Assembly: GCA_029564595.1 (NCBI GenBank)
Contig: JAKQPS010000186.1
Location: forward strand, 1 to 15,171
Length of the DNA: 15,171 nucleotides
DNA from: a bacterium
Lineage (GTDB): Bacteria > UBP15 > UBA6099
Reading direction: 5' to 3'
How positions within the stretch are numbered: the first letter of the stretch is position 1; each line of letters begins with the position of its first letter. Positions 7,000-14,997 of this stretch are shown here, in pieces. The notes beneath the pieces were generated by a model that saw only the letters and a program-made list of their open reading frames with translations, ran no database searches and was not told the DNA's origin. A program made the translations under genes and the position numbers.

Positions 7000-9900
7000 T
7001 TAATCGAAATTGATTTCTTGATTTATGAATTCCTTCATCGCGTCTTCAGGATTTCTCGGTTCAGGCTTAAGTTCAAACGATTTATAGAAAGTCTCTTCGG
7101 CTTGGGCGCGTTTTCCCCTTTTCAACATTGCCTGAGCAAGATTTCTCAAAATTATTCCGTCTTTGGGAGCCAGCGCCGCGGCTTCCGCAAAAGCTTCTTC
7201 GGCGTCCCCATACTGCCCAGTCTTCATGTTATATTCGCCAAGAGCGCGCAGACACCCCTCGCATCTTTCATCGGAAGCCAGAGCTTTCCGAGCGAGCGCG
7301 GCGGCAAGCTCATATATGGAGACCGCTTCGGTCGCTGGGTCGGATGTCTCGACGCTTTTTTCTTCGCCTCCGGGAGCTTTTGCGCCGCGTTTCTTTTCTG
7401 CGGTTTTCAATATGCTCTCCGCCTTTGCGGCGAAAGCCGAAGCCATACAGAGGTGCGTTGTCGCCGAAGCGTCATCTTGCGCAATGTAACTTTCATAAAT
7501 ATTTTGCGCGGCGTCGTAGTCTTCCATCCGGGCAAACATCCTCATCAGGGCTATCGCTTTGCTTTCTGAGGGAGCGCGGCCTTCTGGCGCGGCCACATTT
7601 TCCGCTTCGGAAACAAGTTTCAAAGCTTTGTCTTTTCCTTCCGATTTATACAGCGAATATATTTCTTCGGGTTCAGGCGGCAAGCCGGGTTTAAGCTTTC
7701 GGGCGACGGCATAATTCTCCGAAGACTTCTCCCACATCTCCGTGTCATGGTAGTTTTTTCCAAGGCAAAGATAACCCTGAACGTGATCCGGGTCTGCTTT
7801 AACTGCCTCTGCGCATCTTCTCAAAGCCATAGTCGCGGCCAACTTCCTCCAGTTCAGAGACCTGCACTCCGCGCATCCGGGAGCAAACCCGGCGGCAATG
7901 TCGTAGCACATCTCAGCCCTCTGCGAAAAACCTCTTTGCATAGCCAACATCGAGCCGACTTCGGCTATTGCCATTTCCTTTGGCCATGCGCTTCCATTAA
8001 GCTTGTGGTATTTCCACATAATCGAAATGGACGCGGCGGGGTTGTTACGATCCTTCCTCAACTCAAGCTCCGCGAGAATGCGAGTCGCTTCGGGCAGGAA
8101 AGCCCCTACCATGTTCTCAACTATCCGGCGCGCCTTCTCTTCGGAACGCTGATAGTCGTATTTGCGGTTGCGGTAATATCTCAAAGCTTCGATGCGAACG
8201 GGATGATCCGGCGGGGCCATATTTTCCGCTGTTGCCAGAGCCGATTCCGCCTCTTCTGTCTCCCCTGTCTTCAATAAAAGCTTGTGCAGGGCGAAATATG
8301 TCTCGACATTGCCGGACCCGCTTGAGATGATGTCTTTTAAGAACTGTCTGCGTCCTACCAACCCGCGCGAAGAGCCTTTGTGGGACTCCAGAGCTTCCAC
8401 ATTTTTATAGAACTCTTTGTGCGATTCCGATTTCTTCTTTGCCTTCGCTATCTCTTCAGCGGAAACCGGAGGCTCGGCTACCGAATTGATTATCGCGGTA
8501 AGACGGGCAAGCTCGGTAGGCGGATTTTCCATTGCGGGGACAGTTTTAAGGACTGGCTTGTCGCTTTCAACGTCAATCTCAAAAACGCCTGACGCGTCGG
8601 AACTGTCATTCCATGCGTAAGCCTTTATGTAATATTTTCCTGTCGGAATAAAATCAGGAACCTCGACGACAGCGCTTGCGGAGCCGGAAGCGTCAAGAGA
8701 TGTTTCAAGGGAGAAAGCCACTTTATTGTTGGCGTTGGCATAGTTCGTTCTGGCGGCGGCTTTGAGGGCTTCGCCTTCGAGTCCTTCGATGCCTGTGGTC
8801 GGATAAATCATCTCAGTAGGATGCGCCTCGAGAGTGAGAAATATTTTCCCTGACGGGACGTCGCCGGAATCAATCGCGACACTGAAAGAGCCTCCGGCGG
8901 AAGCGTTTTTCGGCGCTTGCATCAAGACTTTGCCTTGCGGGTACGCTATGCGGGTCGCAGGGTCGCCGAGATAGTTGTAGATGTACAGATGATCGTACGC
9001 GTTGTCTCTGAGTTCGTCTTTTCCCATTATCAAAGTGAACTGCTTGTCCATGAAGCGCCTGTCCTCGTCATATCTGCGAATCATGGCTTTTTGAATGCTC
9101 AGAAGAGCTTGGCCTATCGTCTCCGGCTTCTTCATGGTCAGGAAGAAAAGCAAGTCTTTAGATATAAGGGCGTTGGCGTAAGGATGAGAAACCTCGGATG
9201 CGGCAAAAACGCCGACAGGCCCTTCCGGCGACTTCACAAGTTCCTCGGCGATACAATCGTGCAGAATGTTGAACTTGCCAGTCAGGCAGCTAATGCTGAA
9301 GAAAAACGTGTTCTTTCCGCCCGAAGCCACGCGGGGAACATCCGCAACCTCCATAATGCTGCGGCAGTCTCCCCTCCAGCAGACGGTCGAAAGCCCGTCC
9401 ACGTCTCCGTGCCCGATGTACGACATTATTAACGCGCCCTCGTTGAAACGTTCGACCACTTTCGAGTCGAATTCTTCAGGAGCCAAGAAATAAGGGAGGG
9501 CCGATCCGGCGTATGTCATATTCACGTCGAATTCAGGATTGAAACTGCTGCGGAACATCCGTTTCGTAAGCTCTTCGAGGGTGGAGTCGAAAATGCCGAA
9601 GTCGCCTGTGCTTGCGAATACGGAGACGCGGCGCTTCCAGAGTCCGGGCGGCGGATTCGTTTCGTAGGCGATAATTTTCGAAACCATGCTTTTTATGTCT
9701 TCGGGCGTGTCCGCAGGCAGTCTACCGATTGAGATATCGGGGATTTCATCGCCGTCCATGTCGGAGTACGGCGCGTCCGAGCCAGTGTAAGGCTTCCCTG
9801 AAAAGTCGGAGATATTCACTATGAAAGTCGGGATTGAAACGCCGCTCGGATCATACGAAACGGCGACATCCGTGTCGCCGACGATAAGCAGATACTTCGG

Positions 9901-10224
9901 CGCAGGTTCTTCCCAATTGAAATATGCGTATCTGATGAAGGCGCGAATTGTCTTTGGGCCGGAGGGCCATCGTTTGAACTCCTTATGAATCGATTCCGGC
10001 GTGACCACCGCAACTCTGAGACCATCCGAAACGCGTTTTTCAAGCAGAGGCTCCAGAGCTTCCACGAATGCGGCGGGAGAAATCACAAGATAATCAGCGG
10101 CGTTTTTTTCCGCGCGAGGTTTCTCAACCAGATATGAGGCCGCAACCGCCGATGAATTCATCGATATCAAAATCAGCGACAGCGCCGCAAAGACAGTTGA
10201 TGCTGAACGTTTAATAGAAAACAT
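7000..10224 (-). CDS. Secreted C25 (gingipain-family) cysteine peptidase with TPR C-terminus
   Basis: This 1074-residue exported protein has a signal peptide at 1-29 (hydrophobic 10-20, likely cleavage after AVAA). Residues about 40-430 form a peptidase C25 domain: DGDEIPDISIGRLP (157-170) is a typical subdomain motif, the catalytic His is 272 in SYIGHGD, the catalytic Cys is 313 in SISCLTG, and the domain closes with NYLGDPATRIAYP (417-429). An Ig-like beta domain follows (about 432-555), then a helical, TPR-rich half (about 600-1060) with clear repeats at about 810-845 and 985-1055. C25 enzymes cleave proteins, in gingipains after Arg or Lys; specificity here is unknown. No type IX sorting domain is visible at the C-terminus. 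The start at 10224 is chosen because GGAGG lies eight bases upstream and the signal peptide begins there; the frame is open to 10263. Confidence 0.87.
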   Translation of the reverse strand: MFSIKRSASTVFAALSLILISMNSSAVAASYLVEKPRAEKNAADYLVISPAAFVEALEPLLEKRVSDGLRVAVVTPESIHKEFKRWPSGPKTIRAFIRYAYFNWEEPAPKYLLIVGDTDVAVSYDPSGVSIPTFIVNISDFSGKPYTGSDAPYSDMDGDEIPDISIGRLPADTPEDIKSMVSKIIAYETNPPPGLWKRRVSVFASTGDFGIFDSTLEELTKRMFRSSFNPEFDVNMTYAGSALPYFLAPEEFDSKVVERFNEGALIMSYIGHGDVDGLSTVCWRGDCRSIMEVADVPRVASGGKNTFFFSISCLTGKFNILHDCIAEELVKSPEGPVGVFAASEVSHPYANALISKDLLFFLTMKKPETIGQALLSIQKAMIRRYDEDRRFMDKQFTLIMGKDELRDNAYDHLYIYNYLGDPATRIAYPQGKVLMQAPKNASAGGSFSVAIDSGDVPSGKIFLTLEAHPTEMIYPTTGIEGLEGEALKAAARTNYANANNKVAFSLETSLDASGSASAVVEVPDFIPTGKYYIKAYAWNDSSDASGVFEIDVESDKPVLKTVPAMENPPTELARLTAIINSVAEPPVSAEEIAKAKKKSESHKEFYKNVEALESHKGSSRGLVGRRQFLKDIISSGSGNVETYFALHKLLLKTGETEEAESALATAENMAPPDHPVRIEALRYYRNRKYDYQRSEEKARRIVENMVGAFLPEATRILAELELRKDRNNPAASISIMWKYHKLNGSAWPKEMAIAEVGSMLAMQRGFSQRAEMCYDIAAGFAPGCAECRSLNWRKLAATMALRRCAEAVKADPDHVQGYLCLGKNYHDTEMWEKSSENYAVARKLKPGLPPEPEEIYSLYKSEGKDKALKLVSEAENVAAPEGRAPSESKAIALMRMFARMEDYDAAQNIYESYIAQDDASATTHLCMASAFAAKAESILKTAEKKRGAKAPGGEEKSVETSDPATEAVSIYELAAALARKALASDERCEGCLRALGEYNMKTGQYGDAEEAFAEAAALAPKDGIILRNLAQAMLKRGKRAQAEETFYKSFELKPEPRNPEDAMKEFINQEINFD

Positions 10225-10308
10225 AATCCCCGCCTCCGTTCCGCCGATTGCCAGCGGATACAATCACCACCATGCTTATCATATATTATGGAGACGTTAT
10301 AATAAACC

Positions 10309-11667: not shown

Positions 11668-12180
11668 TTAACAACTGCCGCCTTCCTTCTTTAGAAGTTC
11701 TCTCACTTCCTCGCGCATGTTCTTGATGTCAAGTTCGAGATTCTGCTTCTGAACTTCAACTATCTTCTTTTCCGCAATAGCGCCGAGGAGGGGTATCTTT
11801 ATCTGGATGTCTCCATCCAGAGTGCGGACGGTTTTATCTTCTCCGTCCTTGAAGTACTTTATAACGCCGGACATTTTGAACACGTTCGAGAAATAAAAAG
11901 TTTTAACTTCATATTTATATGTGTGAGTGTCGAAGTCGTGTTCTCCATACTCCGTCCATGTCAGCATGTTCGGAGAAATAAGTTTTCTGAGGTTGGGAGG
12001 TATGTCGCCGTTGGCCACTGTTTCGACCACCACAGTCATCTTGCTCCCTTTGTGTTCTCTCTTTTTCACAGTGGTTTTGGTGACGTTAGGATACACTTTC
12101 ACGTCTCTTGAACGGTCGAGTCCGACTTTCTCAACCGCTTCCAGCGGCCCTTCGATGACATGCCTTGTGTTGTACTTCAT
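11668..12180 (-). CDS. SRPBCC/DUF2505-like protein, copy 2
   Basis: This 170-residue protein has the same apparent START/SRPBCC-type fold as the product of 239-742. It shows alternating beta strands in the middle (for example TYKYEVKTFYF and SGVIKYFKDGEDK), the IPLLGAIAEKKI motif at about 129-140, and a long, charged C-terminal helix ending in GGSC. It has no signal peptide. Such proteins usually bind a hydrophobic or amphipathic small molecule, but the ligand is unknown. AAAGGAG lies 10 bases before the ATG. The gene follows the degenerate class III aminotransferase by 110 nt and is followed by a terminator-like hairpin, so it is plausibly the last gene of the aminotransferase unit. The two DUF2505-like copies are on opposite strands about 11 kb apart and clearly divergent in sequence. 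Confidence 0.75.
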   Translation of the reverse strand: MKYNTRHVIEGPLEAVEKVGLDRSRDVKVYPNVTKTTVKKREHKGSKMTVVVETVANGDIPPNLRKLISPNMLTWTEYGEHDFDTHTYKYEVKTFYFSNVFKMSGVIKYFKDGEDKTVRTLDGDIQIKIPLLGAIAEKKIVEVQKQNLELDIKNMREEVRELLKKEGGSC

Positions 12181-12290: not shown

Positions 12291-13511
12291 CTACTTTGCC
12301 GCTTTCTGCGTCGCTTCAAGAATTTCATCTATCTCTTTCTGAAGGATATCTATGGGAGGAGTGAATCTTACGACGGCCGGATTTGCGGGAGCCGGTAGCG
12401 CAATGACGCCTGAAGCCGCAAGCGCCGAAACAAATTTTTCCGCGCGCGCCGCGCCGTCAGCCTCTACGCCGATCAGAAGCCCCGCGCCCCTCGCTTCCTT
12501 AAGCCCGGAGCTTGATTCGACGATTCTCTTCAATCCTTCAAGAAGCTGCCTGCCTCGTTCCTCCGCGTTTTTGCAGAGCTGATCTTTCTTTATCAACTCT
12601 ATGGTCGCCATCGCCACCATGCAACCTATATCCGCCCCGCCGAAAGTTGAAAGATGCACAAGCGGATGCGTGAGCATGAATCTGTTCAGCCGGGATGTGA
12701 AAATCGTCGCGGTAATAGGATACATTCCTCCGCCCATCCCCTGAGCGACCGTTAGGATATCCGGCGCGACGCCCGAACGCTCGCTCTCGAACAACAGTCC
12801 TGCGCGTCCGAAAGCAGTCTGGCCCTCGTCAAAAATCAGGGCTGCGCCGTGTCTGTCGCAAACCGATCTCGCCTTCTTCAACAGCGAAGCCTGCTTGAAT
12901 ATCACTCCAGCGTCGCTCTGGATCGGCTCTATTATGACCGCCGCCGTCTTGTCCGTAACGGCCTTCTCAAGCGCCGCCTCATCCGCGGGGACTCTCTTGA
13001 ACATCGGAATGAGCGGTCCGAAAAGTTTTTCCTGTCCGGGGTCGTCGGTGGCTGTGAGCGCGAACGCCGTCTGGCCGTGGGAGGCTCCTTCAAAACATAC
13101 AATCTCTTTCTTGCCCGTAGATCCTCGTGACAACTTCATCGCAAAATCGTTCGCCTCGCCCCTGCTGACGCCGAACACCGTGTTCTTAAGATTGCCCGGA
13201 GTTATATTCGACAATGTCTTGGCGAGCGCCGCTTTCTGCGCGGACATCAGAATGAAATTTCCGAGATCGCACTGTTTGATGGCTTCGCGCATCGCGGAGA
13301 CGATTTCCGGCCTTCGATGTCCGAGAACCTGTCTTCCTCCTGAGCAATAGCAATCATAATAGGTTTTGCCGTCGGTGTCGGTCGCCTTCGCGCCTTTGCG
13401 TTCAGCAAGAGCGATTTTCAGTCCGTATCTCTCAAGCTTCGACACCCGCGCCTCGCTGACGCGCCGGGCGTACTGTTCGATAATTTCTTTGGTTTCCGTA
13501 GGCATGCTCAT
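12291..13511 (-). CDS. Class III aminotransferase-like protein lacking the PLP lysine (probable pseudoenzyme)
   Basis: This 406-residue protein aligns along its whole length with class III (ornithine/GABA-type) aminotransferases and with its neighbour at 13544-14923. However, the Schiff-base lysine is Gln257 (TVAQGMGGGMYPI, codon CAG), the ring-stacking Tyr of YHG is Ser144 (ASHG) and the Val of DEVQ is Gly230 (DEGQ). Retained are the cofactor Asp228, the inter-subunit phosphate-binding Thr289 in STFGG and Arg382 in VRFTPP. The frame is intact with no stop or shift, and the fold appears complete, which argues for a maintained non-catalytic role over simple decay. Ordinary transaminase activity is not expected. 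GGAGG lies six bases before the ATG at 13511; upstream in-frame starts lack such a site. It sits 32 nt after the intact paralogue and is almost surely co-transcribed with it. Confidence 0.87.
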   Translation of the reverse strand: MSMPTETKEIIEQYARRVSEARVSKLERYGLKIALAERKGAKATDTDGKTYYDCYCSGGRQVLGHRRPEIVSAMREAIKQCDLGNFILMSAQKAALAKTLSNITPGNLKNTVFGVSRGEANDFAMKLSRGSTGKKEIVCFEGASHGQTAFALTATDDPGQEKLFGPLIPMFKRVPADEAALEKAVTDKTAAVIIEPIQSDAGVIFKQASLLKKARSVCDRHGAALIFDEGQTAFGRAGLLFESERSGVAPDILTVAQGMGGGMYPITATIFTSRLNRFMLTHPLVHLSTFGGADIGCMVAMATIELIKKDQLCKNAEERGRQLLEGLKRIVESSSGLKEARGAGLLIGVEADGAARAEKFVSALAASGVIALPAPANPAVVRFTPPIDILQKEIDEILEATQKAAK

Positions 13512-13543
13512 ATATCGCCTCCGCAGGCTGATTCTGTCGCGAA

Positions 13544-14923
13544 TCAATGTCCGCTTTTGGGAATAACTTTTCCGATTGTTTTTGCGATTAAAATCAGGAA
13601 TACTTGCAACTCCTGCACTCCGATAGCGTTTCCGACGAGCGGAATTTTTGAAGCCGCCTCGATAATCTTCGCGGATTTTTTGACCGACGTCATCGAGTTG
13701 TCCAGAGCCGCAATAAGTCTGTCGGCTTCCTCCTTGTTAATAACAATCGGCGGCATGAGCCTCATGACTTTCGGGTTGTTGGCGCTGAAGATTGCCATAA
13801 CTCCGTTTGTGCCTAAGAAGAACGACATCAGCGGCCCCATCATGTCGTGAGTATACTCAAGGCCGATCATAAGCCCTTTGCGGCGCACTTCTTTGACAAG
13901 CCCTTTGTGTTTTTCCACCAGCTTCAGAATCGCGCCGCCTATGTAGTCACCCATTTCCGCAGCGTGTTGCGGGATATTGTTTTTCTTAAGATATTCAATT
14001 GCTTTAAGCCCGACCACGCAGGCCAAATCCCCGCCGCCGAAAGTCGACACAATCATATCCGGATTGGCTTCCATAAACTTGCGCGCGCGGTCGTTGAATA
14101 TGACAGCCGATATCGGATAGACGGAACCGCTAAGCGACTTCGCCGTCGTCATTATGTCGGGGGTCACTCCGTAATGCTCGCAACAGAACATCTTGCCCGT
14201 TCGACCGAAACCGGTTTGAACCTCGTCGAAAATGAGCATTATGCCCCTCTCGTCGCATATCTTTCTGAGGCCTTCTAAAAACTTCTGTTCGGCCACGAAA
14301 ATGCCCGCTTCGCCCTGAACTAGTTCGAGAATGATAGCCGCAGTGTCCGCTCCGGCAATCCGCTTGACAGCTTCGAGGTCGTTCATAGGCGGCTCGTGCG
14401 TGAACCCCGGAATCAGCGGCTCGAAAGAATCCCTGTAAATCGGTTTTCCTATCGCCGAGAGCGAGAACCCGGTGTGGCCGTGATACGCCTTAACAAACGA
14501 AATAACCTCTTTGCGACCTGTCACGCCGCGCGCCATCTTGAGAGCAGAATCGTTCGCCTCTCCGCCGCCGGAACACAACATAACATTGTTAAGGCCTTCA
14601 GGGGCAATCTCGACCAGCTTCTCCGCAAGCGCCGCCTTCGGGCCTGACGGGAACATGCCGTCTCCCATCCCCCAACTGTCAATCGCGGCGTCCAGCGCGT
14701 TCACTATCTCCGTGTTTCTTCTGCCGACATTGAAACTTCCGGCGGAACAGAAACAATCTATGTACCGCTCCTGCGTGTCCACATCCCACAGATGAACGCC
14801 AAGCCGTTTGCCTTCCAGCACCTCTAGTCCCACCGATTTCAAAAATATCGTCTGTGTTAAGTTGATATGTTTTTTGAAATCGCTTATTCCTTCCTGCTTT
14901 ATTTGTTTGGCGGTTTTAGTCAT
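13544..14923 (-). CDS. Class III aminotransferase (PLP-dependent), intact
   Basis: This 459-residue fold-type I, class III aminotransferase belongs to the family of ornithine, GABA, diaminobutyrate and putrescine aminotransferases, which move an omega-amino group to an oxo-acid. All core residues are present: the GGGEAND phosphate loop (119-125), ring-stacking Tyr147 in AYHG, Asp233 and Val235 in FDEVQTGFGR, Schiff-base Lys262 in TTAKSLSGSVYP, Thr294 in STFGG and Arg388 in MRLMPP. The substrate cannot be read from sequence. Beyond the usual end of the fold (about 410) there is a 45-50 residue tail with a hydrophobic, amphipathic stretch VQELQVFLILIAKTIGKVIP that the neighbouring paralogue lacks. 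The start at 14923 is chosen because AAGGTGAT lies just upstream; an ATG at 14929 and a TTG at 14953 are alternatives. It is the first gene of the likely operon. Confidence 0.9.
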   Translation of the reverse strand: MTKTAKQIKQEGISDFKKHINLTQTIFLKSVGLEVLEGKRLGVHLWDVDTQERYIDCFCSAGSFNVGRRNTEIVNALDAAIDSWGMGDGMFPSGPKAALAEKLVEIAPEGLNNVMLCSGGGEANDSALKMARGVTGRKEVISFVKAYHGHTGFSLSAIGKPIYRDSFEPLIPGFTHEPPMNDLEAVKRIAGADTAAIILELVQGEAGIFVAEQKFLEGLRKICDERGIMLIFDEVQTGFGRTGKMFCCEHYGVTPDIMTTAKSLSGSVYPISAVIFNDRARKFMEANPDMIVSTFGGGDLACVVGLKAIEYLKKNNIPQHAAEMGDYIGGAILKLVEKHKGLVKEVRRKGLMIGLEYTHDMMGPLMSFFLGTNGVMAIFSANNPKVMRLMPPIVINKEEADRLIAALDNSMTSVKKSAKIIEAASKIPLVGNAIGVQELQVFLILIAKTIGKVIPKSGH

Positions 14924-14997
14924 CTTCATCACCTTTTCTAGTTTTGCTTTCAATTAGACAAAGCAGGCATGTTACGCGCATAAAAATATTTTTTGTT

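Follow-up and report, generated by a model that had tools for sequence, protein, structure and literature searches.

Complementary conservation in a tandem pair of class III aminotransferase homologues suggests a heterodimer with a single active site

In the bacterial genome studied here, the gene of a class III aminotransferase homologue that has lost much of its cofactor pocket (B) directly follows the gene of an intact homologue (A), and we propose that the two proteins probably form an obligate heterodimeric, or (AB)2, class III aminotransferase whose one active site would lie in A. With slightly less confidence, we favor a history in which such an obligate heterodimer arose from a tandem duplication followed by complementary decay of the two copies, with a single active site remaining in each dimer, and, jointly with this, in which B would have lost the phosphate cup and the cofactor sandwich first and the lysine later, twice and independently. 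The proposal builds on the gene pairing, the duplication into two clades, the residue changes, purifying selection, and complementary conservation, all read directly from the sequences; it concerns the arrangement of subunits and leaves the amine and carbonyl substrates aside. The window, meaning the whole stretch of DNA that was analyzed (15,171 nucleotides), is an entire contig (G000:C77) of a 4.4 Mb genome and ends just upstream of A; the two closest named genomes found, bacterium ADurb.Bin236 and isolate USCA_metabat.19_sub, are both uncultured MAGs. The features discussed are listed in Table 1.

Table 1. Features of the A-B region in the window (codons of B numbered from the ATG at 13511)
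Feature	Positions	Strand	Description	Basis
A	13544..14953	-	Intact class III aminotransferase, directly upstream of B	Profile and alignment
A-B gap	13512..13543	-	32 bases; GGAGG Shine-Dalgarno-like motif ahead of the B start	
B	12291..13511	-	Class III aminotransferase pseudo-subunit, 406 aa	Profile, structure-sequence and homologue alignments
B codon 117	13161..13163	-	AGG (Arg) at the phosphate-cup glycine position; Arg in 8/8 B proteins	
B codon 257	12741..12743	-	CAG (Gln) at the Schiff-base lysine position	Codon comparison, three assemblies
B codons 284-290	12642..12662	-	LVHLSTF, equivalent to the YgjG Phe327*-Phe333 loop into the partner's PLP site	
DUF2505 gene	11668..12180	-	SRPBCC-like; downstream of B, same direction, 110-base gap	

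B is an open frame without internal stops and matches PF00202 over profile positions 11-402 of 403 (E 4e-81; 273 bits against a cut-off of 30.5), in agreement with an earlier sequence-only reading of this DNA, which had described a class III pseudoenzyme of full length. Judged by this full-length match above the curated cut-off, B is a class III aminotransferase by descent. Its nearest NCBIfam models are the acetylornithine and putrescine aminotransferases, and it scores under all the curated cut-offs listed. By sequence, its best match among solved structures is E. coli YgjG (phmmer 1.5e-63, near full-length; PDB 4uox); residue roles in B were assigned by alignment to it, together with its published PLP contacts (PMC4244111). 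In YgjG, Lys300 forms the Schiff base, Phe180 and Val273 sandwich the ring, Asp271 contacts the ring nitrogen, and the phosphate is bound by Gly150, Thr151, and Thr332*, the last of these contributed by the second subunit; active sites of class III enzymes form where the two subunits of the dimer meet, and Thr332* of one contacts the PLP phosphate bound by the other (PMC4244111). In GabT, T297 has the same cross-subunit phosphate role and G111 the cis role (PMC9309667).

In B, Gln257 aligns with Lys300, Ser144 with Phe180, Gly230 with Val273, Arg117 with Gly150, and Gly118 with Thr151, while Asp228 (Asp271), Thr289 (Thr332*), and Glu195 are kept. Among the features of a working PLP enzyme, B lacks the Schiff-base lysine, the aromatic and Val/Ile sandwich, and the glycine of the phosphate cup (Gly150 in YgjG, Gly111 in GabT), and it retains the aspartate on the pyridine nitrogen and the cross-subunit threonine. 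Alignment to YgjG, in line with the comparison to class III aminotransferases that the sequence-only reading had proposed, confirmed the pocket substitutions, and Ser144, Asp228, Gly230, Gln257, Thr289, and Arg382 all stand where that reading had placed them. The three lost residues that it counted are borne out, but the count was incomplete, as the replacement of the phosphate-cup glycine by Arg117 had been missed.

The partner A has an intact pocket (Lys272, Tyr157, Val245, and a GGG phosphate cup), retains the cross-subunit threonine in this genus along with all the pocket residues, and is 37-38% identical to B. It lies next to B in all eight genomes in which B was found, and these fall into three separate groups: three genomes of this genus (B proteins 97-98% identical), two from a single order that carry the label Firmicutes or Syntrophomonadaceae (G060 and G061; loci L023 and L024, 61-62%), and three genomes of a small separate phylum (G041, G068, and G069; 36-40%). 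The two genes overlap in G041, at the stop of A and the start of B. Among the genomes searched, B never occurred without A, and the only A without an adjacent B is that of G004, where the contig ends inside A. The pair is rare. In the Firmicutes order, 2 of 71 genomes have it, and among 398 genomes drawn from the phylum of this order it occurs once, in G060; this patchy distribution suggests horizontal transfer of the pair.

In a maximum-likelihood tree, the B proteins form one side of a branch (support 100/98) and the A proteins form a group (92/93). In 8/8 genomes, B is accompanied by a homologous, co-inherited partner with an intact lysine that belongs to a clade of its own. The two clades split alike between phyla; therefore, either the duplication predates the divergence of the carriers or A and B moved together. 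A single-copy homologue related to both, L053 in G269 (425 aa), is intact and somewhat closer to A (516 vs 465 bits), being 46-48% identical to A proteins and 36-43% to B proteins, and has all pocket residues and the STFGG loop; unlike A and B, it has no tandem partner and is therefore presumably a homodimer, resembling the state before duplication. Each of the eight A-type proteins ends in an additional ~45 aa at the C terminus that B and the single-copy relatives lack; this extension is hydrophobic, probably amphipathic, and could be a membrane contact or a contact between A and B.

Conservation was expressed as mean pairwise identity with one genome per lineage, for six lineages in three groups. 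Over all B positions, A is the more conserved protein (0.57 vs 0.46 for B), as it is at the contacts made within a subunit (positions 117, 118, 144, 195, 228, 230, and 257; A 0.91 vs B 0.69). The order is reversed in the loop that would reach into the neighboring site (B 284-289, equivalent to YgjG Phe327*-Thr332*), where identity is 0.94 in B, 0.32 in A, and 0.82 in eight single-copy relatives. This loop lies in one of the stretches of strongest conservation in B relative to A, ranking second of 401 six-residue windows, and of the 39 sites, out of 406, that are invariant only in B, it holds five within its six residues; the hypergeometric value of 4e-5 for this enrichment overstates the significance because adjacent sites are not independent. 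Within the nearly invariant B motif HPL(V/I)HLSTFGG lies the equivalent of Thr332*, the residue donated to the neighbor's PLP. In G041 and G068, A has a tyrosine in place of this threonine, and the partner B keeps it. B has thus retained what the site of A would receive from it and lost what its own site would need, and A shows the reverse; the subunit without a working pocket of its own keeps the residues given to its partner's site.

We propose that A would hold the sole working PLP site, which has the lysine, an aromatic and an aliphatic residue on the two sides of the ring, and the glycines of the phosphate cup. B itself would lack a cofactor site, as Arg117 is predicted to fill its phosphate cup and both the sandwich and, in this genus, the lysine are gone. 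Instead, B would close the site of A by inserting the loop HPLVHLSTFGG, which may place Thr289 on the phosphate and Leu284 at the substrate entrance, and the mirror site, made of the loop of A and the pocket of B, would be dead. Counting against a heterodimer, A of this genus keeps the cross-subunit threonine and might in principle function as a homodimer, two B proteins still have the lysine, and the contrast in conservation comes from six lineages in three groups. AlphaFold monomer models, built on shallow alignments (pLDDT 56 and 64), are too weak to place Arg117, and a Foldseek search with such a weak model returned YgjG first but at 10 A rmsd and a TM score of 0.43, which merely echoes the sequence match.

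B could instead form homodimers that lack PLP and have taken on a new role, as a ligand sensor, regulator, or scaffold, and adjoin the enzyme A by position alone, which we consider unlikely. An invariant Arg117 and a Gln147, at which position A and the nearer single-copy relatives have a histidine, refill the pocket and suggest selection for a new one, and the purifying selection on B described below fits as well. However, such a role leaves unexplained why the highest relative conservation of B falls in a loop that serves the PLP site of a neighbor, and why A has a relaxed loop and has lost the threonine in two genomes.

The pocket of B varies between the three groups, and Arg117 is the sole cofactor-contact substitution that is identical throughout. 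Position 144 is Ser in this genus, Ala in G060, Ser in G061, Cys in G041, and Trp in G068 and G069; position 230 is Gly in this genus, G060, and G061 and Thr in the other three; position 257 is Gln in this genus, Lys in G060 and G061, and Glu in G041, G068, and G069. Less probable still is that B remains an enzyme, using PLP non-covalently, another cofactor, or a lysine-independent reaction. Asp228 at the pyridine nitrogen, Glu195, and Gln198 are invariant in all B proteins, as is Thr289, and the lysine kept in two homologues agrees with retained catalysis; on the other hand, every B protein has the arginine in its phosphate cup and altered ring faces, and in two lineages the lysine became Gln or Glu.

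Returning to the heterodimer, the two distant homologues that keep the lysine have lost the rest of the sandwich. By parsimony, the lysine of B would have been lost twice, independently, to Gln in this genus and to Glu in another phylum, and its loss would have come after the change in the phosphate cup and in at least one face of the sandwich. We therefore rejected lysine loss as the founding event, given that two homologues keep the residue and two lineages lost it separately. The sequence-only reading had made its case depend on whether relatives share the loss: Gln257 is indeed fixed in the genus, but one lineage, with both homologues at 61-62% identity, has lysine throughout.

The dimer of A might also work by itself, with optional heterodimers with B tuning its activity, much as antizyme inhibitor modulates ornithine decarboxylase. 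In this genus, A still has the threonine together with all its other residues, which fits this reading; yet the loss of this threonine in two A proteins and the tight linkage of A and B favor an obligate partner, and we regard a modulatory pairing as very improbable.

B is maintained by selection, with neither the relaxed selection nor the broken frame of a pseudogene. Within the genus, dN/dS is 0.044-0.075 for B (8-13 non-synonymous and 49-61 synonymous differences) and 0.030-0.057 for A; the Ka/Ks comparison that the sequence-only reading had called for thus gave values far from neutral decay. All three genus assemblies, at 94-95% nucleotide identity, have the codons CAG257, TCC144, GGC230, and AGG117. 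Although one base change could turn Lys into Gln, we rejected an assembly or sequencing error, which the sequence-only reading had also doubted, and a decaying pseudogene as practically negligible, because the same codons recur in three assemblies, the frame is intact, and dN/dS is as low as in A. The changed function, possibly as a binding partner, that had been suggested for B is upheld by the dN/dS values, the conserved substitutions, and the presence of the B clade in three groups. That suggestion had missed the active partner A and the complementary conservation, which together favor a more specific role for B, as the putative non-catalytic half of a heterodimer, over that of a generic regulator.

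The surroundings of the pair vary. The DUF2505 gene next to B is kept only in the three genomes of the genus, and a second gene of this SRPBCC-like type lies on the same contig (239-742, +), as does that of a 1087-residue protein (7000-10263, -) with a gingipain-type C25 peptidase domain and C-terminal TPR repeats. In a sister genome, the pair is preceded by a same-strand gene run (L030:5021-14340 on G003:C68) comprising a PadR regulator, two SDR-type oxidoreductases, a glycyl radical enzyme (PFL2-3 family, 706 bits), two CoA-transferase-like genes (the second by position only), a PrpD-like gene, and an acyl-CoA dehydrogenase, which looks like an uncharacterized catabolic operon. None of these genes lies upstream of A in G004, of the same family, and elsewhere the pair has a zinc or iron alcohol dehydrogenase as neighbor instead. 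In G041, G068, and G069, a zinc alcohol dehydrogenase always follows the pair (L031:11848-13047, L046:10644-11846, and L047:6879-8258; 61-71% identical). As A-B alone is constant and the other neighbors differ between lineages, substrate inference from neighbor genes was dropped and no pathway is claimed. Separately, a related single-copy class III clade with the motif FETxPAT (L033, L055, L056, L057, and L061) adjoins a gene of a shared type, which matches DUF6206 in L055 and looks alike by eye in the others, possibly another conserved pair.

The usual view of class III aminotransferases is of homo-oligomers whose sites are equivalent. A class III heterodimer in which one subunit is dead is not known to us, and full-text searches of open papers returned none. 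If the proposal is correct, A and B would show an obligate heteromer evolving from a homodimer by duplication with its intermediate stages still alive, in which the lysine is kept or replaced by Gln or Glu and the cross-subunit threonine is kept or lost. The pair would also carry a warning for annotation: the presence of lysine alone would misclassify such subunits, because two B proteins keep it and would be called active.

With YgjG (4uox/4uoy) and other PF00202 members, B shares the fold, as judged by sequence, the Asp/Glu framework, and the cross-subunit threonine; YgjG differs in forming a homodimer that has two PLP sites, and B in lacking the lysine, the aromatic residue, the valine, and the phosphate-cup glycine. 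Heteromeric PLP enzymes with one homologous subunit lacking the lysine do exist, as in the GcvPA/GcvPB glycine decarboxylase P-protein, which unlike A-B belongs to another PLP family and catalyzes another reaction. In serine palmitoyltransferase, LCB1 lacks the lysine and LCB2 has it, and the two are thought to share a single active site (PMC3794620). These subunits (SPTLC1 and SPTLC2) resemble A-B in being two homologous PLP-fold proteins of which only one has the lysine. They differ in belonging to the alpha-oxoamine synthase family, in forming an experimentally established heterodimer, and, for the human enzyme, in being membrane-bound; in the profile search, A and B matched only PF00202 and no class I/II alpha-oxoamine synthase profile. 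The proposed A-B pair would thus be analogous in its working to LCB1 and LCB2, within a different family.
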